Virus record (IMG/VR): IMGVR_UViG_3300013131_000255
Location: 1-23,121 of that record
Reading direction: 5' to 3' (one strand)
Source: a virus
DNA length: 23,121 nucleotides
Every line of letters starts with the position of its first letter. Within the stretch, counting starts at the first letter, position 1. Shown in pieces: positions 2,557 to 22,335 of the stretch. The position numbers and the translations under genes are program-made. The notes beneath the pieces are model-generated. The model made no database searches. It worked only from the letters and a program-made list of their open reading frames with translations, and was not told the origin of the DNA.

Positions 2557-3039
2557 ATGAATCGATTTAAAAAATTATATAGAGACTTTTTCGGATTAAA
2601 CGAATCAGTTCCTGGTAAGATAGAAACAACAGATCCAAAACAAGCTGAAGAAATGGCAAAAAAGGGTATAGCTGTTAAATTAGTAAAACCTGGAATGAAA
2701 ACTGAATCAGAATTAGATGAAGCTGAACTTTTAAATCATATGGATGATTATAGAGGCGGAATAGAATATGTAATTGTAGATCCAGCACAAGCACAAACAA
2801 CTGCTGATGATATTCGTCAATGGGCAGAAAAAAAAGGTTTTAAAGTAATTAAACAAACAGTATCGGCATCTGGTAAAGTAGGATATTTTTATTTTCGATT
2901 AGGCGAAAATCCATATAAAGAATCAAAGAAAATTCAAGGATATATTTCACAATTACCGGTAGTTAAACATTTCAGATTCAATGTTAGAAATGAACAGCCA
3001 AATAATCCACCTGCAGAAAAAAGAACACCAAATATATAA
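2557..3039 (+). CDS. Putative internal head protein with cleavable N-terminus (unknown)
   Basis: 160 residues. The N-terminus MNRFKKLYRDFFGLNE-S is basic and aromatic and ends in LNE, very like the short capsid-targeting peptides of T4 internal proteins, which end in (I/L)-x-E and are removed by gp21. A second possible site, LDE-A, lies at residues 53-56. The remainder (about 65-150) reads as a small mixed alpha/beta domain: strand around IEYVIVD, helix around TADDIRQWAEKKG, then strands FKVIKQ and VGYFYFRLG. A 40-nt AT-rich gap precedes it with AAGG upstream of the ATG. The fold has no assigned function; packaging into the prohead is the best inference. Confidence 0.8.
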   Translation: MNRFKKLYRDFFGLNESVPGKIETTDPKQAEEMAKKGIAVKLVKPGMKTESELDEAELLNHMDDYRGGIEYVIVDPAQAQTTADDIRQWAEKKGFKVIKQTVSASGKVGYFYFRLGENPYKESKKIQGYISQLPVVKHFRFNVRNEQPNNPPAEKRTPNI

Positions 3040-3042
3040 TTT

Positions 3043-3288
3043 ATGAGTAAAAAACAAAAACAACATCAAATGATTCTACCAGGTAATCCATTAGGAGTTA
3101 AAGTAGTAGGATCAAGTCGTGAAGATTTAGCATCCGCACTTAAAACATGGAAACGCAAAGTAAAAGCATCTGATGTATTAGAGACAGTTAAAGATCGTAA
3201 AGAATACACGAAACCAACTGTGTCTCGCAGAAAAGAAAAAATAGATGCAATTTATATGCAACGAATTAAAGATTTAAGAAACATTTAA
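3043..3288 (+). CDS. rpsU: Ribosomal protein bS21-like protein
   Basis: 81 residues, very basic. From about residue 18 it follows the bS21 pattern: a short strand (VKVVG), the helix ALKTWKRKV at 32-40, a second helix with VLETVKDRKEY at 45-55, then KPTVSRRKEKIDAIY at 57-71, matching the Leu/Lys-rich helix, Arg-x-x-Tyr/Phe-x-KP and basic tail of bacterial S21. bS21 sits on the 30S platform near the anti-Shine-Dalgarno end of 16S rRNA and affects initiation. Here there are about 16 extra N-terminal residues; a start at Met10 (ATG at 3070) would give a more standard 72 residues. Neither start has an obvious Shine-Dalgarno sequence, unlike most neighbours. It is the last gene before a strong terminator, so it should be co-expressed with head genes. 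Phage-borne bS21 is known from environmental phages; assignment here is by eye. Confidence 0.8.
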   Translation: MSKKQKQHQMILPGNPLGVKVVGSSREDLASALKTWKRKVKASDVLETVKDRKEYTKPTVSRRKEKIDAIYMQRIKDLRNI

Positions 3289-3309: not shown

Positions 3310-3340
3310 AAGCCTCAACAAAAAAGTTGGGGCTTTTTTA
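3310..3340 (+). terminator. Intrinsic terminator after the bS21-like gene
   Basis: A 10-bp stem, AAGCCTCAAC (3310-3319) with GTTGGGGCTT (3326-3335), has one G-T wobble and an A6 loop, and is followed by a T run (3334-3339). This is a textbook Rho-independent terminator. It separates the protease/bS21 unit from the scaffold/capsid unit. Confidence 0.93.
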
Positions 3341-3481
3341 CTGTTTTTTATTTTAGGTTATATATATTATTAGAATACGCTATCGATTTCATTCTTTATA
3401 TAGCGTTTATTATATATTAAATTCTATTAAGATTCTAAATAATCTTATTTCCAAAACAACCAATTTAAGGAGAAAACAAGT
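3341..3481 (+). promoter_or_regulatory. Leader/promoter region of the scaffold-capsid unit
   Basis: About 140 nt of non-coding AT-rich DNA lie between the terminator and the scaffold start, the longest gene-free gap in the window. Two inverted repeats are visible: ACGCTAT (3377-3383) with ATAGCGT (3400-3406), and TAAGATT (3428-3434) with AATCTTA (3441-3447, 6-nt loop). A strong Shine-Dalgarno TAAGGAG (3466-3472) lies 9 nt before the ATG. Because a terminator lies just upstream, a promoter for the highly expressed scaffold and capsid genes should be here. Several TATA-like tracts exist (3358-3370, 3396-3402, 3409-3420) but no single one can be chosen by eye. Confidence 0.55.
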
Positions 3482-4501
3482 ATGGCAAAATCTGATTTGC
3501 TAAAACAAGCAATCGCAGACGCAAATGCTGTTAAAGAAACTGCATTAGCTAATGCAAAAATTGCGTTACAAGAAGCATTTGCTCCTCGTTTAGAAAGAAT
3601 GTTATCAACAAAACTTTCTAAAGAGTTAGAAGATGAAGAAGAAAATCCAGAGGCAATGGCTGGTGATGAAGAAGCTGGATTAAGCGATGAAGCTGGAATG
3701 GATGCAGAAGCTGGAATGGGTGGAATGCCTGATTCAGTAGGTGTTGGGTTAGATTTCGATCAAGATGGTGATTATGATTTATCTGGCGTATTAGGCGCCG
3801 ATGATGAAGAAGAAGCATTACCAGGTGATGAAATTGCACCAGCAGAAGAAAATCCAGAAGATGAGTATAACGAAGGTTATGCACATGACGAAGAAGATGG
3901 CGATTTAGAATTAGAATCTATTATTCGTGAATTAGAAGGTGATCTAGAAGAACCAGCAGCCGAAGATGAAGAAATGGGCGAAGGGTATGATATGGGTCAT
4001 GACGAAGAAGATGAAGATTTAACAGAAGACATCGATTCTATCATTGAAGCAATTTTACGTGAAGACGAAATGGCTAATCCTGAAGCTGCTGATGAAGAAG
4101 AAGAAGTTGTTGAAGCATTGAAATCTGAAGTTGCTGAAAAAGAAGAAGAACTTCAAGAAGCATACCGTACGGTTAAACAACTTAAATCTATCATCAATGA
4201 AGTTAATCTTCTTAATGCAAAACTTCTTTATACAAACAAATTGTTCCGCAATTTTGAATTAAACGAATCTCAGAAAATGAAAGTTATTGAAAACTTTGAT
4301 AGAGCTGGGAACACAAGAGAAGTAAAATTAGTATTTAGTACATTAGCTGAATCATTTACACGTCCAGCAACTAAGAAAAGAGTAGTAAAAGAGTCTTATG
4401 CATCTAAACCGACTGCAACAACAGCTCCAAAATCTGCTCCAATTCTTAATGAAGGATTTGAATTAGCTAATAGATGGAAAAAATTAGCAGGATTGCTATA
4501 A
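3482..4501 (+). CDS. 22: Prohead core scaffolding protein, T4 gp22-like
   Basis: 339 residues, extremely acidic. This protein forms the internal core on which the capsid shell assembles and is later degraded by the gp21-like protease. Residues 1-50 are helical; 50-215 are a low-complexity Glu/Asp region with two similar copies of an EGYxxx-HDEED...SII-E block (about 131-150 and 167-191); 205-250 is a coiled coil; 258-292 (FELNESQKMKVIENF...FSTLAES) aligns in pattern with the LTESQKEKV segment near the end of T4 gp22. It ends with NRWKKLAGLL. Many LxE sites (for example LNE at 260-262 and 322-324) suit protease degradation. Residues 91-99 (DFDQDGDYD) resemble a calcium-binding loop. A good Shine-Dalgarno and the immediately following capsid gene support the call. 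Confidence 0.88.
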   Translation: MAKSDLLKQAIADANAVKETALANAKIALQEAFAPRLERMLSTKLSKELEDEEENPEAMAGDEEAGLSDEAGMDAEAGMGGMPDSVGVGLDFDQDGDYDLSGVLGADDEEEALPGDEIAPAEENPEDEYNEGYAHDEEDGDLELESIIRELEGDLEEPAAEDEEMGEGYDMGHDEEDEDLTEDIDSIIEAILREDEMANPEAADEEEEVVEALKSEVAEKEEELQEAYRTVKQLKSIINEVNLLNAKLLYTNKLFRNFELNESQKMKVIENFDRAGNTREVKLVFSTLAESFTRPATKKRVVKESYASKPTATTAPKSAPILNEGFELANRWKKLAGLL

Positions 4502-4519
4502 TTAAAAAGGAAAGAAAAA

Positions 4520-6187
4520 ATGAGTATTTCAAACTTATTACAAACAAATGATTTCGTTCAAAGAAATCAAGCAAAAGCTTTACAAGCAAAATGGGAAAAA
4601 ACGGGACTATTAGAAGGTCTTAAAAGTGAAACTGAAAGAGCAGGTATGTCTCAATTGCTTGAAAACCAAGCTCGTCAGTTAGTAAAAGAAGCATCACAAA
4701 CAGGTACAGCACAAGGATCTGAAGAGTGGGCTGGTGTTGCACTTCCATTGGTACGTCGTATCTTTGCTGAGTTTGCTGCAAAAGAATTTGTTTCAGTTCA
4801 GCCAATGAACTTGCCATCAGGTCTTATTTTCTATCTAGACTTTAAATATGGTACAGCTCAACCTGGATTTGATGATGATAATTTAAATAGAACGGGTGAT
4901 CCATTCGGTTCTCCAAATGCCGATGATTCATTGTTTGGTGTTACTACTACTGGTAATGATCCATCAGGAGGTCTTTATGGTGCTGGTCGTTTTGGTTATT
5001 CACTTAACAATACTGCATCAGTTGTAACTATCACAACAGGATCAGTAGGTGCTGCAGATTTTAATTATGATTCAAATTATACAGGATCAGCAGCTCAATA
5101 CGTAAAAGTAACATTCACTGCACCATCAACAGCTGATTTATATGCAGTTCGTTCATTTACATTAACTTCTGGATCTACTGAGTATGTACCGGTACAAGCT
5201 TTCTCTAAAATTGATAGCTCATATAATGTAACTATGATCGTAACTGGATCTGCATTTGGATCTGGTAACTTATTCTATACAGCTACAAGCGGTCAAGCTC
5301 CTAAATTAAACTTCTCAGTTCAACCGAATGATTATTCACGCGGTGACTTTGAAGATAAAAATCCATTCAAAGGTACCGCATATGGTACTTCTGGTATTAA
5401 CCAAGGTACGGATATTGATATCCCAGAAATTAACCTTGAAATGCAATCAGATCCAATCGTTGCTAAGACTCGTAAGTTGAAAGCAGTTTGGACTCCTGAA
5501 TTCGCTCAAGACTTAAATGCTTACCATTCAATTGATGCTGAAGCTGAATTGACTTCAATGTTGTCTGAGTATGTATCAATGGAAATTGATCTAGAAATCT
5601 TAGATATGTTGATTTCTGCAGCTCCAACTACTGAGTATTGGTCAGCATTAAATAACAACTTCTGGAACGGATCTGGATTTACACAATCAGGTGCTGGTGC
5701 AGCTACTGCAGTTGGTGATGGATACTATAACACTCAAGGTGGATGGTTCCAAACATTAGGTACTAAACTTCAAAAAGTATCTAATAAAATTCACCAAAAA
5801 ACTTTAAGAGGTGGTGCTAACTTCCTTGTAACATCTCCTGCAGTTGCAACTATTCTTGAGTCTATCCCAGGATTTGCTGCTGATACAGATGGTAACAAAA
5901 TGGAATTTGCAGCTGGTGTACAAAAAATTGGTGCAATCAATAACCGTTACACAGTTTACAAAAACCCTTACATGCAAGAGAATGTAATCTTGATGGGCTT
6001 CAGAGGTTCTCAGTTCCTTGAAACTGGTGCTGTATTTAGTCCATACATTCCACTTATCATGACTCCATTGGTATATGATCCAGTTAACTTCACTCCACGT
6101 AAAGGTGTTATGACACGTTACGCGAAGAAAGTAGTTCGTTCTGAATTCTACGGAAAAGTATACGTACACGGATTGAATACACTTTAA
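4520..6187 (+). CDS. 23: Major capsid protein, T4 gp23-like
   Basis: 555 residues, slightly longer than T4 gp23. It builds the hexamers of the icosahedral head. Key matches to T4 gp23: LVRRIFAEFAAKEFVSVQPM at 77-96 followed by NLPSGLIFYLDFKYG, and a block at about 298-350 with KTRKLKAVWTPEFAQDL and IDAEAELTSMLSEY, the capsid-floor signature. The first 50-60 residues are a helical pro-region; LLE-G (30-33) and LLE-N (46-49) fit the prohead protease rule, the second being close to where T4 gp23 is cut. Residues about 125-285 are Gly/Ser/Thr-rich beta-type sequence without a clear T4 match, probably an insertion displayed on the capsid. AAGGAAAG precedes the start, and a terminator follows the stop. 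Confidence 0.95.
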   Translation: MSISNLLQTNDFVQRNQAKALQAKWEKTGLLEGLKSETERAGMSQLLENQARQLVKEASQTGTAQGSEEWAGVALPLVRRIFAEFAAKEFVSVQPMNLPSGLIFYLDFKYGTAQPGFDDDNLNRTGDPFGSPNADDSLFGVTTTGNDPSGGLYGAGRFGYSLNNTASVVTITTGSVGAADFNYDSNYTGSAAQYVKVTFTAPSTADLYAVRSFTLTSGSTEYVPVQAFSKIDSSYNVTMIVTGSAFGSGNLFYTATSGQAPKLNFSVQPNDYSRGDFEDKNPFKGTAYGTSGINQGTDIDIPEINLEMQSDPIVAKTRKLKAVWTPEFAQDLNAYHSIDAEAELTSMLSEYVSMEIDLEILDMLISAAPTTEYWSALNNNFWNGSGFTQSGAGAATAVGDGYYNTQGGWFQTLGTKLQKVSNKIHQKTLRGGANFLVTSPAVATILESIPGFAADTDGNKMEFAAGVQKIGAINNRYTVYKNPYMQENVILMGFRGSQFLETGAVFSPYIPLIMTPLVYDPVNFTPRKGVMTRYAKKVVRSEFYGKVYVHGLNTL

Positions 6188-6249: not shown

Positions 6250-6263
6250 ATATTTATAATAAA
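6250..6263 (+). promoter_or_regulatory. Candidate late promoter element before the 91-aa gene
   Basis: ATATTTATAATAAA lies between the capsid terminator and the next ATG at 6279. The same 14 bases occur at 22341-22354, and variants occur in four other gaps. Position just after a terminator and about 16-29 nt before a start suits a promoter -10-type element. T4 late promoters use TATAAATA; the match here is only partial. Confidence 0.4.
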
Positions 6264-6566: not shown

Positions 6567-7235
6567 ATGGCAGCATTATCAAACAAGGAAAAAACTCCTC
6601 CAAAAAACGACATTAAGTTTTCAATAACATTGTCAGAAGAACAAAAAGCCGCAAAATCAAAAATATTAGAAACGCCATTTAATTTTATTATTGGTAAAGC
6701 TGGTTCTGGTAAAACATTGCTAGCAGTACAAATTGCATTGGATATGTTCTTTAAACGCAGAATAGATAAAATTATCATAACTCGTCCAACTGTGTCAAAT
6801 GAAGATAATGGATTTTTGCCAGGAACATTAGCAGAAAAAATGGATCCGTGGTTAGTTCCGATTCGAAGCAATATGCGTAAAGTATATAACAAACCAGAGT
6901 TATTAGATAAAATGGAAAAGGAAGAAAATATAGAATTGGTTTCTTTAGCACACTTCCGCGGACGTACATTTGATAATGCAGTTTGTATAGTAGATGAATT
7001 TCAAAACTTGACTAAACAACAGTTGCAAATGGTATTGTCTCGTTTAGGTAAAGATAGTATTATGATATTAACAGGCGATAGATATCAAATAGATTTAAAA
7101 TTTAATAATGATTCGGCAGTTCATGAAGTACCTAAAATTAAACCATCTCGTTTTGTAAATGAAATTATTTTAACAGATAATCATCGTCATGAAGCGTTAG
7201 AGGAGATTTTAAACTTGCTAAATGAAAAGTATTGA
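6567..7235 (+). CDS. phoH: PhoH-family P-loop ATPase
   Basis: 222 residues, the usual size of phage PhoH. Walker A GKAGSGKT is at 43-50. The family block around 82-99 (NGFLPGTLAEKMDPWLVPI) is clear, RGRTF is at 131-135, Walker B with VDEFQNLT is at 142-149, and the sensor-like ILTGDRYQIDL is at 167-177. These make the family assignment secure. PhoH proteins are predicted ATPases linked to RNA metabolism and, in some hosts, to phosphate starvation; phoH is very common in marine T4-like phages, but its biochemical role in infection is unknown. No clear Shine-Dalgarno is visible. Its place between capsid and neck genes implies late expression. Confidence 0.95.
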   Translation: MAALSNKEKTPPKNDIKFSITLSEEQKAAKSKILETPFNFIIGKAGSGKTLLAVQIALDMFFKRRIDKIIITRPTVSNEDNGFLPGTLAEKMDPWLVPIRSNMRKVYNKPELLDKMEKEENIELVSLAHFRGRTFDNAVCIVDEFQNLTKQQLQMVLSRLGKDSIMILTGDRYQIDLKFNNDSAVHEVPKIKPSRFVNEIILTDNHRHEALEEILNLLNEKY

Positions 7236-7260: not shown

Positions 7261-8499
7261 ATGGATTACAGCGAAAATAGACCAATCTGGCCAGGCAGTT
7301 CATCATTTACTGTTGGGTCTACACCATTTGGATTTTTCGATGCAGATCCAATATTCCAACAACAAGCAGATAGTTTTGCAAAATTTGCAGCACAACATGT
7401 TGGATATCCAATCATGGATGTAGAATTAATTGATATTAATTTTTATACAGCATTGGAAGCAGCTACAGTTGAATACTCAAATCAAATTAATCAAGTTAAT
7501 ATTGTAAATAACCTATTAAATACATTAGGTGTACAAACAGGTTCTGCATTTTTAAATGGAGGTAGTTTTACTGGTAAAACTGTTGGTACATCATTAAATT
7601 ATATTACAAAATTATCTAAAGCGTACGGTACAGAAGCAGATAGCGGTGGAAATGTAAAATGGCGTAAAGCTGTTATTAACATACAACCCGGACAACAAAC
7701 TTATAGTATACGAGAAGCAGTTTCAGCATCATTAGCTGCTGAATCGGCATCATTATCAACTACTAGTTCAGTTGAAATTCGCAGAGTATTACATAACACA
7801 CCGCCAGCTATTGTTAGATATTTTGATCCATTCGTAGGAACAGGATTGGGTTCTCAGCAATTATTAGATTCATTTAACTTTGGTGGATTCTCCCCATCTA
7901 TTAGTTTCATGATGATGCCAGTTCATGCAGATTTATTAAGATTGCAAGCAATTGAATTTAATGATCAAATTCGTAAGTCTCATTATACTTTTGAAATACA
8001 CGGGGATGATATTAAATTTTGGCCTGTGCCGACATCCGGTACCGGTTCTTCGGCATCTTCATTATTTTATAGCAAAGTATGGATCGAATATTTATTCGAA
8101 GAAGAAAAAGATCAACAAGCATTTTTATTTGGTAATACCGCACTTATAAACGGTGTTGTAAGTGACGCATCAAATATACCATATACATATCAAACATATA
8201 GTACAATTAATGATATGGGTAGAGCTTGGATATTTAAATACGGTGTTGCACTAGTTAAAGAAATGTTAGGATACGTTCGTGGTAAATATTCATCAGTACC
8301 GATTCCAAATGCTGAAGTAACACTTAACGGATCTGATTTAGTATCACAAGGACAATCTGAAAAAGAAGCATTAATAACGCAGCTTCGAGAATTTTTAGAT
8401 AAATTAACTAAAGAACAAATGTTAACGCGTCAAAATGCAGAAGCAACACAGATGAATGAGTTGTTAGCAAAGGTTCCGCTTAAAATTTATGTTGGATAA
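7261..8499 (+). CDS. 13: Neck protein, T4 gp13-like head completion
   Basis: 412 residues against about 309 in T4 gp13. gp13 binds the portal after packaging and, with gp14, forms the neck to which the tail attaches. The N-terminal VGYPIMDVELIDINFYTALE at 47-66 parallels the T4 start (small helical domain after a P-x-x-x-VEL motif). The C-terminus is the strongest match: WIFKYGVALVKEMLG, then LNGSDLVSQGQSEKEALITQL at about 355-375 and the terminal KIYVG, comparable to the T4 ending with [20 protein letters not shown] and GILVG. The extra length is mostly Ser/Gly-rich sequence near residues 90-190. It is preceded by AAAGGGAA and followed at once by gp14. Confidence 0.85.
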   Translation: MDYSENRPIWPGSSSFTVGSTPFGFFDADPIFQQQADSFAKFAAQHVGYPIMDVELIDINFYTALEAATVEYSNQINQVNIVNNLLNTLGVQTGSAFLNGGSFTGKTVGTSLNYITKLSKAYGTEADSGGNVKWRKAVINIQPGQQTYSIREAVSASLAAESASLSTTSSVEIRRVLHNTPPAIVRYFDPFVGTGLGSQQLLDSFNFGGFSPSISFMMMPVHADLLRLQAIEFNDQIRKSHYTFEIHGDDIKFWPVPTSGTGSSASSLFYSKVWIEYLFEEEKDQQAFLFGNTALINGVVSDASNIPYTYQTYSTINDMGRAWIFKYGVALVKEMLGYVRGKYSSVPIPNAEVTLNGSDLVSQGQSEKEALITQLREFLDKLTKEQMLTRQNAEATQMNELLAKVPLKIYVG

Positions 8500-8508
8500 G
8501 GAGGATGA

Positions 8509-9024
8509 ATGGCACTATTTGGCGGGATGCGAGATGCAAAATTTTTAGCATCAATTAACAGAGAATTACTAAACGCAATTATAGATACTGAAATAGAATT
8601 TTTTAAACTGCATATAGAAACTAGTAATTCAAATATATACGGCGAGTCTGAAAATAAATCATACTATGATTCTATATTAATTCCTTGTTTAATCACTAAA
8701 GAAGGAAAAACTGCAAATATGGATGATTATGGTCATTCATATACAAGAACAGCTCAGTTTGGAGTGTCGCGAGATATATTAGAACGTGCAGATTTTTATC
8801 CAGAAGTTGGTGACATAATATTTTGGGATAATGAATATTATGAAGTTGATAACGTAGATGCAAATCAGTATTTTGCAGGAAAAAATCCAGAAACATGGCC
8901 AAACGGTGCAAATCATGGTTATAGTGTTTCTATCATGATAGATACTCACGCAACAAGACAAACGCCACAAGGTATTAAAAATTTAAGACGCGGTGGTGAT
9001 AATAAATTTGGATACAAACAATAA
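8509..9024 (+). CDS. 14: Neck protein, T4 gp14-like
   Basis: 171 residues, shorter than T4 gp14 (about 256). The supporting segment is PEVGDIIFWDNEYYEVDNVD at about 97-116, comparable to the GDLIYF...LFEINWVEP stretch of gp14, together with the order gp13-gp14-gp15. The following YFAGKNPETWPNGANHGYSV continues the beta-rich domain. The protein would cap the connector with gp13. It has the strongest Shine-Dalgarno in the window, AAGGAGG at 8498-8504, overlapping the gp13 stop. The C-terminus is basic and Gly-rich. The next gene overlaps it by TAATG at 9022-9026. Confidence 0.72.
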   Translation: MALFGGMRDAKFLASINRELLNAIIDTEIEFFKLHIETSNSNIYGESENKSYYDSILIPCLITKEGKTANMDDYGHSYTRTAQFGVSRDILERADFYPEVGDIIFWDNEYYEVDNVDANQYFAGKNPETWPNGANHGYSVSIMIDTHATRQTPQGIKNLRRGGDNKFGYKQ

Positions 9025-10566: not shown

Positions 10567-11640
10567 ATGGCAACATGGAAAAAGGTCATTGTCTCGGGCA
10601 GTAACGCAAATCTAACGGCATTACAAGTAGACAACTTAACATCCGGTCAAGTAGTAATTGGAGGCGGGGCTAGTAACCTTTCTACAACGGCTATTAATGG
10701 TACTGGAAATATTGTAGCAACAACGGGCGCATCTGGACTATCACATTCTGGTAGTTTTTCCGGATCATTTCAAGGCGATGGTTCTCAGTTAACAGGTATA
10801 ACTGCGGGTAGTTTAACTAATACACTTACATTTGGTGAAGGTTTAGGTGGAGCTGTTTCATTTAATGGATCTGCAGCTGTTACATTAACGGTATCGGGCG
10901 CAGCTGATTTAACAAGCAATACAATTGTAAAATGGGATGATACTGATGGTAAATTCCAACCAACTAGTTTAGCAGACAATGGTACTGTTGTTTCTGGTGC
11001 ATCATCTATTCAGTTAACAGGAGCAAATTCATCATTAACAGGATCATTTACTGGTTCATTCACCGGAGATGGATCGCAATTAACCGGTATTGCAACTACA
11101 CTGACTATTGATGCAGACGCCGGCGGTCCTAGCACAGTAGCATTAGCAACACAAACATTAGATATTCAAGGTACTGCTAATGAAATCGAAACATCGGTAT
11201 CCGGCCAGACTATTACAATTGGATTACCTAACGATGTAACAATTGGTAATAATTTAACCGTTACTGGCGATTTATTTGTTAATGGTACTGCTACATATAT
11301 TAATACACAAGATTTATATGTAGAAGATAAATTTATACTATTAGCATCTGGTTCAGCTGGTACAACAGATGGTGGTATTGTTATTGACAGAGGTTCTGAA
11401 GCCGCGGGAAATATTGCGTTCGGATTTGATTCAGCCACAGGTCGTTGGGGATTCCAAGATGGATTAATTGATACATCCAATGCATTAGATCCAACTGCAG
11501 CATCTGGTGTAAGCGGTTCATTTATGTCATATGTATTCACAGAAGCATCACATGGTGCAACAAAACCAACTACCGGTGAGTTTGCTAAAGAAGGTGCAAT
11601 TTATACAAATACAGACGGCACGGTTTGGATTTATGCATAA
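10567..11640 (+). CDS. Tail fibre protein with GDGSQLTGI repeats
   Basis: 357 residues, rich in Gly, Ser, Thr and Ala and low in Cys and Met, as in trimeric phage fibres. It starts MATWKKVIVSGS, a module shared with the fibre at 12149. Two copies of a SGSF-x-GDGSQLTGI motif lie at about 61-78 and 158-175. A further familiar fibre block, GDLFVNGTATYINTQDLYVE at about 235-254, continues into DKFILLASGSAGTTDGGIVI; comparable blocks occur in marine T4-like fibres. It should be a structural part of a host-binding fibre. It has no catalytic motif. Neighbours are the small protein upstream and two tiny genes downstream. Confidence 0.82.
   Translation: MATWKKVIVSGSNANLTALQVDNLTSGQVVIGGGASNLSTTAINGTGNIVATTGASGLSHSGSFSGSFQGDGSQLTGITAGSLTNTLTFGEGLGGAVSFNGSAAVTLTVSGAADLTSNTIVKWDDTDGKFQPTSLADNGTVVSGASSIQLTGANSSLTGSFTGSFTGDGSQLTGIATTLTIDADAGGPSTVALATQTLDIQGTANEIETSVSGQTITIGLPNDVTIGNNLTVTGDLFVNGTATYINTQDLYVEDKFILLASGSAGTTDGGIVIDRGSEAAGNIAFGFDSATGRWGFQDGLIDTSNALDPTAASGVSGSFMSYVFTEASHGATKPTTGEFAKEGAIYTNTDGTVWIYA
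10774..11091 (+). repeat. Two in-gene copies of the GDGSQLTGI module
   Basis: Copies at 10774-10800 and 11065-11091 encode GDGSQLTGI after a GSF-rich run; the DNA has drifted at synonymous sites (GGCGATGGTTCTCAGTTA against GGAGATGGATCGCAATTA), so selection acts on the protein. A more distant copy (GDGSDLFNV) occurs at 22141-22167 in a different gene. Confidence 0.7.
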
Positions 11641-12148: not shown

Positions 12149-14509
12149 ATGCCAAATTGGAAAAAGGTCTTAACCTCCGGATCTGCCGGAGAACTTGCAT
12201 CTTTATATGCGCCGAGTATAACAGGTTCTCTATTAGGAACTGCATCTTATGCAACTCAAGCACTATCGAGTTCATATGCTTTAAACGGTGGTGTAACACA
12301 ATTATTAGCAGGACCTAACATAACTCTTTCCCCAACAACGGGTAAAGGACAAGTAACTATTTCTGCTACTGCTGGAGGGCCTTCCTATAATACAGCAACC
12401 GGGTCTTATGGATCTTTTTATGACACAACTACACAAACAAATCCTGTAGGTAATATTCCACGTTTAATGTCTTTCAACACAACAGACATTACAAACGGAG
12501 TATCCATATCAGGATCAACATCTCCATACAACACATATATTAAAACAGAAAACCCAGGTGTATATAATATCCAGTTTTCAGCTCAAATAGATAAAACAGA
12601 CGCTGGAACTGATGAAATAGTAATTTGGCTTAGTAAAAATGGTATCGATTTAGCAGATACTGCTACTACAATCACATTAAGTGGTAACAACGATAAACAA
12701 GTAGCAGCTTGGAACTGGTTCGTAAACTCAGCAGCTAATGACTATTACCAAATAATATGGTATTCAGCAGATACCGATTTAAGACTCTTAGCTGAAACCG
12801 CAGGTGGTGGACACCCAGGCATTCCTTCAGTAATATTAACTGTAAATAGAGTAGATCAATTTTTATCAAATACCGGATCATTTAGTGGATCATTTACGGG
12901 CCAATTAATTGGTACAGCATCTTGGGCAACAAATGCAATAACTGCAAGTTATGTTTTAAATGCAGTATCATCTAGTTTTGCTAGTACTGCGAGTTATGTT
13001 AATTCATTAAACCAAGACGTAATAATTACCGGGTCTTTAATAGTATCAGCATCAGGAACAACCAATGATTTATTAATCGGTTCAAACAAATTATTTGTAT
13101 CCTCCTCCGGTGATGTCGGTATTGGGATTACATCATCACTTAATGCAAAATTACATGTTAATAATACTGGTGCCGGTAATTCATTCCTAGTAGAAGATGA
13201 CACAAATCCGGATTCAACACCATTTGTTATTGGATCTACAGGTAATGTTAGTATAGGTACTGGAAGTGTTGGTACCTATAAATTAGATGTTGTTGACGTT
13301 GATCCACAATTAAGAGTTTACGGAACTTCAAACAATAGAGCGTTTAGGTTATATCCTACTAACGGTGCTATTGAAGCGGATAATACAAGTTTTTATTTAA
13401 ATAGGGTATCAACAACTAATATATTATTAGGTGCCGGTGGTGGTAATACGGGAGTAGGCTCAGTTCAATCACCTGCATATAAACTTCATGTTTCCTCTTC
13501 TGGAACAACCGCTCTAGGAGTAGATGTTCCTGATGGGAACACCGTTTCATTATCATTACGCAGAAGAGATAATGATAGTGCATGGTTATTTAATTTAGCA
13601 GGAAACGATTTAAGAATATATAATAGTAGCGGAAGTGGTACGGGAAATGATATTTTATTTGGGGTTGATTCTAGTGGTAATAGCGTAGCAAATAATGTTG
13701 GTATTGGAAAAACTGCACCAAACGCTAAATTAGATGTTTCTGGTTCTACTATTATATCTGGATCATTAACTACTACATCATCTGTATTTTTTAAAAATTT
13801 ACCTAATACATCAACAAGTAATACTGTATATTATAATACAACTACCGGTGAATTAACATATGCAACCGCCGGCGCAGGATCATCTGATTTTCCATATACC
13901 GGTTCTGCCATTATATCAGGATCATTAATAGTAACCGGATCAGTTAATGTAACCCAAAATATAACAGGCTCACGAATGTATTTGTCTGGGTCTATTGGAA
14001 CAGTATCTGGCTCAACATTAATATTATATGGGTCCGGCTCTACAAATCCAATATTCACAGTACAAGGATCACAAGGTGAATTATTTTCCGTAACAGATAA
14101 CTTATCAGGATCATTATTCTCAGTTAATGATATTTCCGGATTACCAGTATTAGAGGCATTCTCAGATAATACAGTATTACTAGGTAGTTACCAAGATCCG
14201 ATGTTAATTACAACTACAAAGCTAGTAACTACAGCATCAGGAGCCTTCAATATATATAGTTTACCTACAGCATCATATGATACAGCATTCTATGAATATT
14301 CGATCAGATCTGGTTCAAATGCACGTGCTGGTTCGATTATGGCTATTCAATCAGGATCATCGGTAAATTTCACTGAAACTACAACAACTGATTTTGGATC
14401 TACTGCAGGATTTGCATTTACCGTTTTAATATCCGGTGCTAGTATGATATTAACAGGATCAGCAACAACATCGGGTTGGACAATAAAAACAATAGTAAAA
14501 GGTTTATAA
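12149..14509 (+). CDS. Large tail fibre protein with C1q-like domain
   Basis: 786 residues. Order of parts: MPNWKKVLTSGS at 1-12, shared with the fibre at 10567; GTASYATQALSSSYA at about 30-44; a jelly-roll, C1q/TNF-like block at about 78-236 (SYGSFYDTT, GVYNIQFSAQ, EIVIWLSKNG, PSVILTVNRV); GSF/GTASWAT/TASYV linkers at 240-292; fibre shaft repeats with DVGIG-AKLHV and NVSIG-YKLDV near 320-390, and again near 510-530; and a C-terminal beta domain from about 690 (YDTAFYEYSIRSGSNARAGS to the end). Such proteins form trimeric fibres with receptor-binding domains. The jelly-roll and C-terminal domains are candidates for host contact. AAAGG precedes the start. A short GC-rich hairpin (12175-12191) lies in codons 9-15. 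Confidence 0.85.
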   Translation: MPNWKKVLTSGSAGELASLYAPSITGSLLGTASYATQALSSSYALNGGVTQLLAGPNITLSPTTGKGQVTISATAGGPSYNTATGSYGSFYDTTTQTNPVGNIPRLMSFNTTDITNGVSISGSTSPYNTYIKTENPGVYNIQFSAQIDKTDAGTDEIVIWLSKNGIDLADTATTITLSGNNDKQVAAWNWFVNSAANDYYQIIWYSADTDLRLLAETAGGGHPGIPSVILTVNRVDQFLSNTGSFSGSFTGQLIGTASWATNAITASYVLNAVSSSFASTASYVNSLNQDVIITGSLIVSASGTTNDLLIGSNKLFVSSSGDVGIGITSSLNAKLHVNNTGAGNSFLVEDDTNPDSTPFVIGSTGNVSIGTGSVGTYKLDVVDVDPQLRVYGTSNNRAFRLYPTNGAIEADNTSFYLNRVSTTNILLGAGGGNTGVGSVQSPAYKLHVSSSGTTALGVDVPDGNTVSLSLRRRDNDSAWLFNLAGNDLRIYNSSGSGTGNDILFGVDSSGNSVANNVGIGKTAPNAKLDVSGSTIISGSLTTTSSVFFKNLPNTSTSNTVYYNTTTGELTYATAGAGSSDFPYTGSAIISGSLIVTGSVNVTQNITGSRMYLSGSIGTVSGSTLILYGSGSTNPIFTVQGSQGELFSVTDNLSGSLFSVNDISGLPVLEAFSDNTVLLGSYQDPMLITTTKLVTTASGAFNIYSLPTASYDTAFYEYSIRSGSNARAGSIMAIQSGSSVNFTETTTTDFGSTAGFAFTVLISGASMILTGSATTSGWTIKTIVKGL

Positions 14510-14510
14510 T

Positions 14511-15239
14511 ATGGCGTTTAATTGTAGTCCTAAAATAGTTACAGACGGATTAGTTTTGTATTTAGATGCTGCTAACTCTAAGAGTTATGTATCTGGTTCT
14601 ACAACTTGGAATGATATTTCACGTGGTGGAAATAATGGAACATTAGTAAACGGACCAACTTACAGCAGTGCAAATGGTGGTTCAATTGTGTTTGATGGAG
14701 TGAATGAATATGTGAATAGCAACTATAAACCAGTATTAGTATCTGGTAATAGCTACTCTCACTCAGTATGGTTTAGAACAACATCTGCAACTGTAGGCGA
14801 TGGGGGAAGTAATAGAATGATAGGAGCTCGAGACAATACAAAAACCGGTTCCCCACTTATTGAAGCCGCTGTAAATCTATTTAATAATAATACCTTAGCA
14901 TTTCTAGCTAGAGGTGCAAATGGAACAAGACGAGATTTAGAAGTTACTAATATATCTGTTAATGATGGCGTTTGGAGACATTTTCATTGCCAAATACTGT
15001 CTAATGGTTATACTCAAATTTATCTGAATGGTATATTAGTGGGACAGAATACGTTAGGCGTAGATACTAATATAAATTTATCAGGCCAGCCTTTAGTAAT
15101 AGGTGCTAGAAGTTTAGAAGGTAATATTAGTGCTTGGCTTAATGGAAATATTGCCAATGCTCAAATCTACAACAGAGCACTCTCAGCAACAGAAGTCCTC
15201 CAAAACTACAACGCAACTAAAACGAGATTTGAATTATGA
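14511..15239 (+). CDS. LamG/concanavalin-A-like lectin-fold protein (copy 1)
   Basis: 242 residues. The start VTDGLVLYLDAANSKSY at 10-26, then WNDISRGGNNGTLVNGPTYS and IVFDGVNEYV, is the standard opening of phage and bacterial LamG-like jelly rolls. HSVWFRT, the IYLNGILVG strand around 167-175 and the GNIANAQIYNRALSATEVLQ block near the end complete the fold. Such domains usually bind glycans or act as fibre-tip adhesins; no hydrolase residues are obvious. It starts 1 nt after the big fibre stop, has no signal peptide, and overlaps the next small gene by ATGA. A second copy lies at 15490. Confidence 0.88.
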   Translation: MAFNCSPKIVTDGLVLYLDAANSKSYVSGSTTWNDISRGGNNGTLVNGPTYSSANGGSIVFDGVNEYVNSNYKPVLVSGNSYSHSVWFRTTSATVGDGGSNRMIGARDNTKTGSPLIEAAVNLFNNNTLAFLARGANGTRRDLEVTNISVNDGVWRHFHCQILSNGYTQIYLNGILVGQNTLGVDTNINLSGQPLVIGARSLEGNISAWLNGNIANAQIYNRALSATEVLQNYNATKTRFEL

Positions 15240-16298: not shown

Positions 16299-16835
16299 AT
16301 GGCAAATGAATTCATAATAAAGAACGGTTTCCGGTCACAAGGAAACTCTGAAATAACCGGATCAATTGATGTTAGTGGTTCTGTTATATTTGCAGCAATA
16401 CCTAATAATACAACGACTGATGTATTATATTATGATGTTGCAACAGGAACGGTTTCACATGGTACTGCGCCAAGCGGCCCTGGCGGATCTACTGACACTG
16501 GTTCATTGTTAAAAACAGCTTCATTTTCAGATCCAAACATAGTATTTACAAAAGGGGATAGTAGTACATTTAATGTAGATATATCTGGATTAAATGCACC
16601 TATAGCGCTATATGCAACATTAACATCGAGTATATTGTCAGGGACTACCGTTATATTACCAGGGGCATTAACATATTTCAGTTCATCTGCATATGAATAT
16701 CTAGAAGTGCACGTTAACGGTATACAAATGCGGTATGACATTGATTTTATCCCGATTACAACAGCATCAGTACAATTTAATATAACGATCCCATCCGGAT
16801 CCGAACTAATTTATAAGAGTTATAAAAGGCCTTAA
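16299..16835 (+). CDS. Short fibre/adaptor protein
   Basis: 178 residues. The opening ANEFIIKNGFRSQGNSEITG, followed by SIDVSGSVIF, is a wording common at the N-terminus of environmental phage fibre proteins and may be the attachment end. The middle is Gly/Ser/Thr-rich (APSGPGGSTDTGSL). The C-terminal 50 residues (YEYLEVHVNGIQMRYDIDF through ELIYKSYKRP) form a compact beta module related in pattern to the extra C-terminal domain of the gp15-like protein. It probably forms a small fibre or an adaptor joining larger adhesins. A gap with a TATAAATA-containing element precedes it, so it may begin a transcript with the genes to 22335. Confidence 0.75.
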   Translation: MANEFIIKNGFRSQGNSEITGSIDVSGSVIFAAIPNNTTTDVLYYDVATGTVSHGTAPSGPGGSTDTGSLLKTASFSDPNIVFTKGDSSTFNVDISGLNAPIALYATLTSSILSGTTVILPGALTYFSSSAYEYLEVHVNGIQMRYDIDFIPITTASVQFNITIPSGSELIYKSYKRP

Positions 16836-17144: not shown

Positions 17145-20100
17145 ATGGCTATAATAACAGCAAAAACCGGTTCAGCTACTCCATTAAACGTATTAGATCC
17201 AAATACATGGGTAGGAGGTGTAGTACCTGGCCCTGCAGACATAGCAGTATTTCCACACCATCCATATACGCAACAGTTTTATTTTCCAGATGCTGCGTCA
17301 TCATTAGTAACACCATATGCGAATTATATATTTCCATGGTCATCGTCATTAGATGGTAGAGTTAGAATACGTTTATATGGTAATACTGGGTTTTCTGCAA
17401 CATCTGGTAGTTTTTTATTTAAAACAAATGCTGCATTTAAAAATTATATTAAAGTTGATTATAACTACATGACTGGTACTACTACTAATACATTCTTACA
17501 TAGTTGTAGTATCGATCGTTCGTATAGCAATACTACATGTTCGGTAGTACCTGGTGATAATTGGATTATATCTGGTAGTTATGAGTTTGATGATAATTAT
17601 GCATTAGGATATATGGCAACGGGTAATAACCAATTAATTCCATTTACGGGATCGTCGCCAGCTTCGGGAGCTATGCAAGGACCGTTAATGTATGAATTAA
17701 CAGGATCCCAACAATGGACGGTTGGTACCGTACGTATGGGCGATCATAATCAGTTTATATTAAAAAATACATCAAAATTAATATTAGCAACTGGGTCAAC
17801 TCCGTCTGTAGATTTCTTTACAAACGGTGCTAATTTCAGTACATTGATAGTACAAGATTCTGCGACAATTGAAGTTAGTAGCAGTTTAAGAAACAACGTA
17901 CAAGGTCAATTAAACACCGGAATATATTTAAATAGTACCGGAGGTAATTTTGTATTATTATCCGGATCTGCAAACTATTCAGCATCATTTACTACTACTA
18001 GTAGCGTTGCTGGTGATAATTACATAGAAGTGCAAAATGCAAATGCATTCGATGTTGGTGATTGGATAACTATTCAACAAGATACTAACATAGTAGGTAT
18101 TATGAATTTATCCGGATCTACGACTTCTAGTTTCCCATCTACCGGTAATATATTAAACCCAATTGGTTCATATTATTCTAAACCATTAACATGGTTAGAT
18201 GCTATAACAACAGGTACACCAGAAACAGATGAAGTTGTACGTATAGAAAAAATTAGTGGCAGTAAACTTTATGTTTCAAAAAGATTAGGATATCAAGGAT
18301 ATATACATCAAAATTTAGGTACATTTACATACAAACAGTTTGCCGAAACATTTAAAAAACCGGTACAATACTTCTCTGGATCTAGGCGTGTATTATTAGC
18401 AGAAACAAACCATCATGCCTTTAAAACAGGTGATTGGGTTGCAACAAATGAGGGGGTATATCGGGTATTAGAAACAAATACATATTTAAGTCAATCTAGA
18501 TTCGTAGACTTCACAAAACCAGAAACTCAAGCAGTACAAGAATTTTGTAAATCTCCATATGCATTTTCTGGATCTGGTTATTCTGGAGCAACGACAACAC
18601 CAACATATGCAGATTCATATTTTTCATATAATTTCATGACTACCGGTTCTAGAAATGGAAAATACTCATTTTATCTAAATAGCGCTAGTTTATCAAATAA
18701 CTCAACAGCTGCTAACTATTTAACAGCAACATACGGTATGCGTGGCAATTTCTTTATATCAGGTAGCTGGTTTAAAGAAGGAGAAATTGAGTTATCTGGC
18801 AGTTTAATACAAGATTTTACAAAATATAGCGGAAGTTTATATGAGTCAATAGGCTTAGTATGGCCAGTAAAACCATCACAACGTGAAGATTATAATTTAC
18901 ACACAGTATCATATGGAGATGTATATTATCCTAAAGAAAACAATGCATTTGGAGTTCGTGGAGATGGTGTAATATATTTTAATGTGGATGGAGCTGTCGA
19001 CATTAACCGAGATGGTTTAATATATGTAAGTGGTAGTAATAAACGAGATTTTTATAATGATAATGACTTTTTTACGAACTTACCAACATCATCATTTACA
19101 TCTATTGGATCGGAAGTTAATTTAAAAGTACGGGTACAAGATAATTATACTGAATTATTAGCAAATGGAGTTAGTTTAGGAAAATGGTCATCTATTAATG
19201 ATGCTGGTGGTATTTCTGTACAGATGCGTCGATATGCATCATTATTTTCAGTTTCTATTAAAAATTTATATGATTTAATCATATTAGATACAGAAGATGA
19301 AATTGCGCCATTACAAGATATACGAGAAGCTGGTTTAGAAGAATCACATTTTGCTAATAAAACAGTTAAATGGTGGGCTACTGAAGTAGAAGATGAAATG
19401 GGTCATCGAAATTTAGTATGGGACTATTGGAGAACAAAAGGACAAACCGGAATAATGCCGTACTTGCATAGTTTTACTTATGCACATAATAATATCAATA
19501 CTTGTCAAGGTTATCTAACTGCATATCAAGGTAGTAGATTTTTAAATTTTAGCCCAACATATAATTATGGATTTACTCAACCAGTAAACATGACAGCTAG
19601 TGTTGCTGGTTTAAATTATTTAACAATTGATATGGGTACGCCTGTTACATTTGATACAATTGGTATTAGTCCAGCAGTAGGAGGCGGTTATACAGGTATA
19701 GAATCTGGATATCCGTCTAATGCCATAGGTTGGGCTAACATAATGCGAAACATTAAATTTGAAGTTTCTGATACGCCAGATTCGTGGCAAGAAGTTTATG
19801 CAACACAAGATGATTTGAGAATTAGTGCCGGGTCAGGCGCTATTCGATATTATACATTCCCAAGCGGCAGCGTAACTAAACGATTTATACGTTATCATAA
19901 TGCGGCGGGTAATCGATCATCAGAATATACCGGTTTAAGTTTGTTTGGGGTATATAATTTTCAATCAGCATCTGGATATACACCTAGCACTCAAAATCAA
20001 GTAAAACTTCGAAGTGTTAAAAATATTCGAGTAGGCGATTCTATAATGTTTTGGAGTAAACAGTATGGTAATTCTGTGCGCGGAGTCACACAAGGTACAG

Positions 20101-21756: not shown

Positions 21757-22335
21757 ATGAAGTTCAAAGTAATAAATGCAGAACCATTACAATTTCATAA
21801 TGAATATGGAGACTTAACTGGTACTATTTTAATATCATCATCCGGTGATATGATTTTACGTCCAGAGTCTGGATCGAGCAATGCTATTATAATCGGAGAT
21901 CAGACTACCACCGGCACTGTAGAATTTGGTACCGTTGCAGCACCAGTTACATTGGATTTATTAGGTGGCGGTACTATTACTAGTAATGGTAATACATTGT
22001 ATGTGGGTGCAACTGGTGATACTGTTATAATTAACAATCCTCAACTAAACAATGCAATGTTTACCTCATCGCTTAATGTAACCGGATCTATACTTGTAAC
22101 AGGTGTAGTAACTGCTAGTTATTTTATTGGAGACTTTAGTGGGGATGGTAGCGATTTATTCAATGTAACGGCATCCTATCTCAATCCATTAGCACAGACA
22201 GTCCAATTAAATGGTGCTTTAATAATAACAGGATCTACAACAATATCTGGATCTATTACAGGATCGTCTGGTAACAACGTAACATCGGATGCGCTGATGC
22301 AGGCTACATTGTTATATTTATCTAACAATTTTTAA
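21757..22335 (+). CDS. Fibre-like virion protein with GDGSDL motif
   Basis: 192 residues. The first part (MKFKVINAEPLQFHNEYGDL) looks like an attachment end; then a Gly/Thr/Ser beta-rich shaft (ILISSSGDMILRPESGSSNA, TVEFGTVAAPVTLDLLGG). At about 117-145 comes VTASYFIGDFSGDGSDLFNV-TASYLN, a divergent copy of the GDGSQLTGI module of the fibre at 10567. The C-terminus repeats TGS/SGS triplets before a short helix ending LYLSNNF. GAGGAT precedes the ATG by 6 nt. It likely joins or extends the adhesin encoded upstream; no receptor-binding domain is obvious. Confidence 0.78.
   Translation: MKFKVINAEPLQFHNEYGDLTGTILISSSGDMILRPESGSSNAIIIGDQTTTGTVEFGTVAAPVTLDLLGGGTITSNGNTLYVGATGDTVIINNPQLNNAMFTSSLNVTGSILVTGVVTASYFIGDFSGDGSDLFNVTASYLNPLAQTVQLNGALIITGSTTISGSITGSSGNNVTSDALMQATLLYLSNNF

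Follow-up and report, generated by a model that had tools for sequence, protein, structure and literature searches.

Shine-Dalgarno sequences on head genes accompany an N-terminally extended bS21 protein in a lineage of T4-like phages

We found that Shine-Dalgarno sequences (SDs) on the head genes of a T4-like phage lineage accompany a particular type of phage-encoded ribosomal protein bS21, which suggests that this protein alters the message choice of the host ribosome late in infection. The window, by which we mean the whole stretch of DNA analyzed here, is a virus record of 23,121 bases and seems to be part of a T4-like phage genome. bS21 is reported to be by far the commonest ribosomal protein carried by phages (PMC9976891), and its presence in phages, its location near head genes and the hypothesis that it replaces the host protein were already published (PMC6375957, PMC9723584). 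New are the fixed co-directional place of the gene, the conserved extension of its product, the lack of an SD at this gene in an SD-rich operon, and the association of SDs with the bS21 type. The papers on phage bS21 that we found do not report on SD use in these phages, and none of the papers found describes a co-directional extended bS21, an SD-less bS21 gene amid SD-bearing head genes, or a link to SDs.

Results

A true bS21 gene in the head-gene cluster

The ORF at positions 3043-3288 (plus strand, 81 aa and a stop codon) encodes a true bS21. Its product matches the Pfam family Ribosomal_S21 (PF01165) with 41.3 bits at a cut-off of 27 (E=1.3e-10), and no other PF01165 match was found in the window record. 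Further, the ORF matches PHROG 21469 ("ribosomal protein S21"), and the product aligns to solved bS21 chains, including that of the Flavobacterium johnsoniae ribosome (7jil). An AF2 model built from 33 relatives (mean pLDDT 86) shows helices at residues 26-43, 45-52 and 58-80 and thus the helical architecture expected for bS21; a Foldseek search with this small helical model gave no significant match. Hence the family pattern read in the product by the first-pass annotation was confirmed by both the profile and the predicted fold which it had named as checks. According to the alignment with 7jil (offset 17), Tyr71 of the phage protein (codon at 3253-3255, plus strand) is the counterpart of F. 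johnsoniae Tyr54, a bS21 residue that stacks on the anti-SD tail (PMC9976891). The Bacteroidia-type aromatic residue is therefore present at the stacking position. In the window clade the equivalent residue is Tyr in 31 and Phe in 18 cases, while it is Tyr in all of the 80 Bacteroidota bS21 proteins among the matches listed.

The gene is surrounded by head genes, all on the plus strand. Upstream are the genes for the prohead protease (Peptidase_S77, gp21-like; 1468-2100, Pfam E=3.6e-33) and for two proteins with conserved positions and no assigned role, one with an early [LI]xE motif (2103-2516) and one located directly 5' of bS21 (2557-3039), the end of which is 3 nt from the bS21 start. Directly downstream, a consensus scan revealed a terminator-like hairpin of 10 pairs followed by a T-run (3310-3335, plus strand), and so the earlier placement of the gene between head genes and a terminator holds. 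Then follow the gene for an acidic, scaffold-type protein (3482-4501), which is located between protease and capsid genes like T4 gp22 and gave no family match in comparisons with Pfam and PHROG, and the major capsid gene (gp23 family; 4520-6187, Pfam E=1.1e-75). Family matches were also found for PhoH (starting at 6567) and a head-tail adaptor-like protein (starting at 7261). Scans of the window for tRNAs and Rfam families found no feature.

Several other properties of the window were observed. The early [LI]-x-E motif is present in the head-cluster proteins encoded at 774-1463, 1468-2100, 2103-2516 and 2557-3039 and in 97-100% of their orthologues. It resembles that of the T4 prohead core proteins, which are cut by gp21, and the head-cluster ORFs which carry it and have no assigned role may encode internal core proteins. 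SGS-rich segments such as SGSFSGSFQGDGSQLTGI are common to the virion or tail proteins encoded at 10567-11640, 12149-14509, 16299-16835 and 21757-22335. Two related proteins are encoded at 14511 and 15490, and the 1536-aa protein encoded at 17145 is without a family match.

Relatives of this locus were gathered with bS21 (57 loci) and then again with the protease, since selection on bS21 itself was to be avoided; the search for loci relied on short patterns matched exactly, and gene starts were called mechanically. Among the 68 loci newly gathered with the protease, 61 carry bS21 on the same strand between the orthologue of ORF 2557-3039 and the scaffold gene, and the other seven end short of this spot, so that bS21 is present in 61 of 61 informative loci. 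Thus, bS21 is a fixed core gene of the head cluster in this T4-like clade, and it is co-directional with the head genes in all loci. In the Bacteroidetes phages described by Chen et al. 2022, for which late expression was seen in metatranscriptomes, bS21 likewise neighbors protease, capsid and terminase genes in a T4-like module and has an aromatic residue at position 54; however, these phages encode bS21 on the other strand than their head genes (PMC9723584).

The conserved N-terminal extension

Codons 1-17 (3043-3093, plus strand) encode a phage-specific basic extension, MSKKQKQHQMILPGNPL. There are 31 residues ahead of the ALK motif in the window protein and 14 in 79 of the 80 Bacteroidota homologues among the matches listed, the remaining homologue having an in-frame upstream ATG; the extension itself is absent from all 80. 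The extra N-terminus, estimated previously at about 16 residues, thus amounts to 17. A scan of bacterial genome contigs with patterns derived from the family alignment gave no bacterial relative by those patterns, so that no bacterial genome was seen to carry the extension.

All complete clade members start with M[SN]K[KH]xKxH...[PAS]G. In 81 distinct coding sequences K3, K6, H8 and G14 are invariant, while the codons of K6, H8 and G14 vary, and a simple pairwise estimate of dN/dS in these sequences is approximately 0.17 for the extension and 0.26 for the core. Judged from these sequence comparisons, the extension is under purifying selection. M10 was considered as an alternative start and rejected, because it is conserved in 22 of the 81 sequences only. 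In sister clades a looser form of the extension recurs, with a basic stretch followed by [ILV]PG and a valine-containing stretch.

SD sequences ahead of the head genes and their absence at bS21

To score SDs in distinct clade sequences, we computed how strongly the 22 nt ahead of a gene start pair with the 16S tail ACCUCCUUU, and the threshold was a pairing better than -5 kcal/mol. In the window, SDs on the plus strand precede the genes of the protease (AGGAG at 1454-1458, -7.3 kcal/mol, conserved in the clade), the scaffold-type protein (AAGGAG at 3467-3472, -8.2 kcal/mol) and the capsid protein (AAGGA at 4507-4511, -5.8 kcal/mol), and the gene at 8509 has the SD AAGGAGG at 8498-8504 (-11.1 kcal/mol). 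In the clade an SD was found in 100% of 37 distinct upstream regions of the protease gene, 100% of 50 of the scaffold gene, 98% of 60 of the capsid gene and 93% of 27 of the ORF at 7261. The motif is mostly located 5-9 nt ahead of the start and is rare further upstream. The region upstream of bS21 (3021-3042, plus strand) has a pairing of 0.0 kcal/mol, and none of 63 distinct bS21 upstream regions passes the threshold. The missing SD noticed by the first-pass annotation is thus a property of the whole clade. Right before the bS21 start, many otherwise divergent clade members (for example L018, L038 and L062) have a GTTAT or AGTTATAT stretch, where the window has ATAATTT; this stretch may be an SD-independent initiation context.

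The pattern in Bacteroidota is the reverse. A strong SD was found at 75% of the 80 rpsU genes among the matches listed and at 0.7% of 149 neighboring genes, in line with the description of rpsU as the SD-bearing gene among SD-less ones (PMC9976891). The strong Bacteroidia-type SD is thus missing in the clade (0/63 vs 75% of 80 in hosts).

SD use in the clade is not limited to structural genes. With hand-set gene blocks in the four window-clade genomes (G001-G004), 41% of the structural and 21% of the other genes have an SD (odds ratio 2.6, p=4e-6), and the non-structural genes are still at approximately threefold background, which weakens the idea that SDs occur only in late genes. By the same measure, phage T4 has SDs at 57% of its late and 47% of its early and middle genes.

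SDs and bS21 in the wider lineage

We collected 252 distinct capsid loci from capsid relatives of the window, of Flavobacterium phage vB_FspM_immuto, of Mel-JY01 and of the huge phage LR756508, and judged the absence of bS21 within contigs. In the set used for the capsid tree, which consists of related and thus not independent sequences, 108 of 117 loci with bS21 carry a capsid SD, compared with 3 of the 63 loci without bS21, in all of which protease, scaffold and capsid genes are present. The bS21 state changes at least six times on the capsid tree. The supported independent pairs (3.3 concordant and 0.4 discordant of approximately 5) go in the same direction as the overall association and alone are not significant because they are too few. 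Genome-wide, 11 bS21-bearing genomes are enriched in SDs (14-29% vs 4-10% in shuffled sequences), and three genomes without bS21 show no enrichment; PF01165 was absent from the whole records of G013, G014 and G015.

There are exceptions. Capsid SDs of weak to moderate strength occur in G015 (L384) and its relatives, which have no bS21, and a scaffold SD is found in part of the bS21-less clade. In a subclade without bS21 (L293-L299, L308, L309 and L318) we observed a strong AAGGAG ahead of the scaffold gene, while the capsid gene and the genome as a whole are without SDs. On the other hand, no SD enrichment was found in the viral contigs L555-L564, which resemble the phages of Chen et al. and carry a bS21 of host length, without extension, in opposite orientation to the head genes, nor in the sampled parts of the bS21-bearing huge phages LR745206 and LR756502. 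The idea that bS21 alone implies SD use was therefore rejected; rather, SD use tracks the extended or divergent bS21 type.

vB_FspM_immuto, isolated on Flavobacterium, shares the head-module lineage of the window, with 55% identity in the capsid and 54% in the protease, but has neither bS21 in the head cluster nor SD enrichment. Mel-JY01 (PP395634), recorded as a Microcystis phage, has a capsid protein approximately 54% identical to that of the window, bS21 between the protease and scaffold genes, and SD-using genes; unlike in the window, neither the KKQKQH extension nor the aromatic residue is present in its bS21, and an SD precedes the gene for this protein.

Host and promoters

The bacterial bS21 proteins closest to the window protein, 80 of which were kept, are from Bacteroidota, one of them titled Chlorobi; this holds among the matches listed, from a scan based on a pattern that favors some phyla. 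Based on this similarity and on their relatives, the phages of the window clade probably infect Bacteroidota. When 20 kb of the window were compared with CRISPR spacers from 396 genomes of the phylum, all matches were weak, short or of low complexity.

Bacteroidota promoters follow the pattern TTG-N17-22-TAnnTTTG. This pattern is found upstream of genes 20 times in Mel-JY01 (1.3 expected) and 11 times in G007 (0.7 expected), both of which are bS21-bearing relatives with a non-aromatic residue 54. In Mel-JY01 (PP395634.1; L168, L169, L483 and L484) we observed TTGCATA...GTAnnTTTG 30-50 nt upstream of many genes and no occurrence of the promoter pattern on the reverse strand. The recorded host of this phage, Microcystis elabens, may be wrong; our literature search found no paper on Mel-JY01. 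No such promoters were found in G001-G004, and their absence there is uninformative, because they are also missing in vB_FspM_immuto with its known Flavobacterium host. For the window clade, in which neither these promoters nor a convincing spacer match was found, the Bacteroidota host is inferred.

A further element, TATTTATA, is located approximately 20-40 nt upstream of gene starts, often just past a terminator (in the window at 6251, 7236, 10541, 16254 and 22342). Throughout the lineage, also in G001-G004, vB_FspM_immuto and Mel-JY01, its occurrences are enriched on the coding strand, and it is the reverse complement of TATAAATA of T4. It looks like a shared late promoter element.

Discussion

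In the class Bacteroidia, mRNAs of the bacteria are without SDs. Bacteroidia ribosomes hide the anti-SD tail of the 16S rRNA in a pocket partly formed by bS21, and in F. johnsoniae bS21 governs the choice between SD and SD-less mRNAs: Y54A exchange or loss of the bS21 C-terminus increases the translation of an SD mRNA 3- to 5-fold, and the latter also decreases initiation on SD-less mRNAs (PMC9976891). In E. coli, both the SD and the 3' end of the 16S rRNA are in contact with the N-terminal region of bS21 (PMC10123108). The phage protein belongs to the same family, and its expected ribosomal site is the one used in the autoregulation of F. johnsoniae rpsU; however, in the host rpsU has the SD and the other genes are SD-less, whereas the phage pattern is reversed (PMC9976891).

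Based on these observations we favor, at slightly less than even chances, the reading that host bS21 is displaced by the phage protein, which enables SD-blind Bacteroidota ribosomes to use the SD-marked late phage mRNAs. A more far-reaching proposal, which we put forward tentatively and would sooner doubt than trust, is that the protein acts as a switch of the initiation mode, turning ribosomes with an occluded anti-SD into SD-reading ones which prefer SD-marked phage mRNAs over SD-less host mRNAs, the switch gene itself being kept SD-less for unmodified ribosomes. The phage bS21 mRNA would be read by unmodified host ribosomes, which could translate it because its gene lacks an SD, and this would start the switch. 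The phage-specific protein would be made together with the late head proteins and would substitute for host bS21 in the small subunit of the ribosome, where its basic N-terminal extension would make the anti-SD usable; in sister clades the loss of Tyr54 could also help. SD-marked late phage mRNAs would then be initiated ahead of SD-less host mRNAs. The weakest step is the release of the anti-SD in the window clade: the Tyr or Phe kept at position 54 should favor its hiding, and thus the extension would have to free it. Also at odds with the favored reading are the SD use beyond late genes (structural 41%, rest 21%), the approximately five supported independent transitions, which alone are not significant, the capsid or scaffold SDs of some bS21-less phages, and the host of the window clade, for which neither Bacteroidota promoters in G001-G004 nor a convincing spacer match was found. 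Further, the one tested phage bS21, that of Pelagibacter phage HTVC008M, entered E. coli ribosomes but impaired translation (Mizuno et al. 2019, PMC6375957). That protein differs from the window protein in its length of 67 aa, its alphaproteobacterial origin and the absence of a reported link to SDs (PMC6375957).

The association could also arise from a difference in hosts, if the bS21-bearing phages infected SD-using bacteria and their bS21-less relatives SD-less Bacteroidota; the SDs would then match the host, and bS21 would top up or replace host bS21 with the initiation mode unchanged. T4 in E. coli likewise has SDs throughout, Mel-JY01 was recorded from Microcystis, many sister-clade bS21 proteins lack the Bacteroidia aromatic residue, and neither promoters nor spacers directly link the window clade to a host. 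We nevertheless regard this explanation as unlikely, given that the window bS21 is closest to Bacteroidota bS21 among the matches listed and keeps Tyr/Phe54, that Mel-JY01 and G007 combine Bacteroidota-type promoters, SDs and bS21, and that the absence of an SD at bS21 alone in the operon is left unexplained. Still less probable to us is that phage bS21 replaces the host protein and gives phage messages an advantage through different contacts within the mRNA exit channel, with the anti-SD staying hidden and the SDs not being the selecting feature. Substitution together with N-terminal divergence near the mRNA was proposed by Chen et al. (PMC9723584), and both the aromatic residue 54 of the window clade and the Chen-type phages with bS21 and without SDs agree with it, but the strong, normally spaced head-gene SDs and their absence in bS21-less relatives are not explained in this way. 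Last, encapsidation was raised as a possibility for phage bS21 (PMC9723584), and the position between head-maturation genes would suit an internal protein delivered at infection, with the extension as a capsid-targeting tag. This we consider highly improbable: none of 70 bS21 N-termini was found to have a T4-type targeting segment with the motif [LI]-x-E of the protease at its end, while the motif is present near the N-terminus in 97-100% of the neighboring head-core candidates. A capsid-targeting role of the extension was rejected on this ground.

In summary, the interpretation of the first-pass annotation is partly supported: its family assignment, the head-gene setting and its idea that late translation is tuned by replacement of host bS21 fit the data and are already in the literature (PMC9723584, PMC6375957); the two oddities it listed, the extension and the absent SD, are real and informative, while the head-gene SDs and their link to bS21 had been overlooked. 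The lineage is related to phages that infect SD-blind hosts; within it, head-gene SDs occur with an extended bS21 and are mostly missing without it, and this pattern gives a specific, testable answer to the question of what bS21 does for phages. If true, this would be an example from nature in which a virus reprograms the specificity of ribosomes through the swap of one ribosomal protein, and possibly a tool for specialized translation in Bacteroidota.
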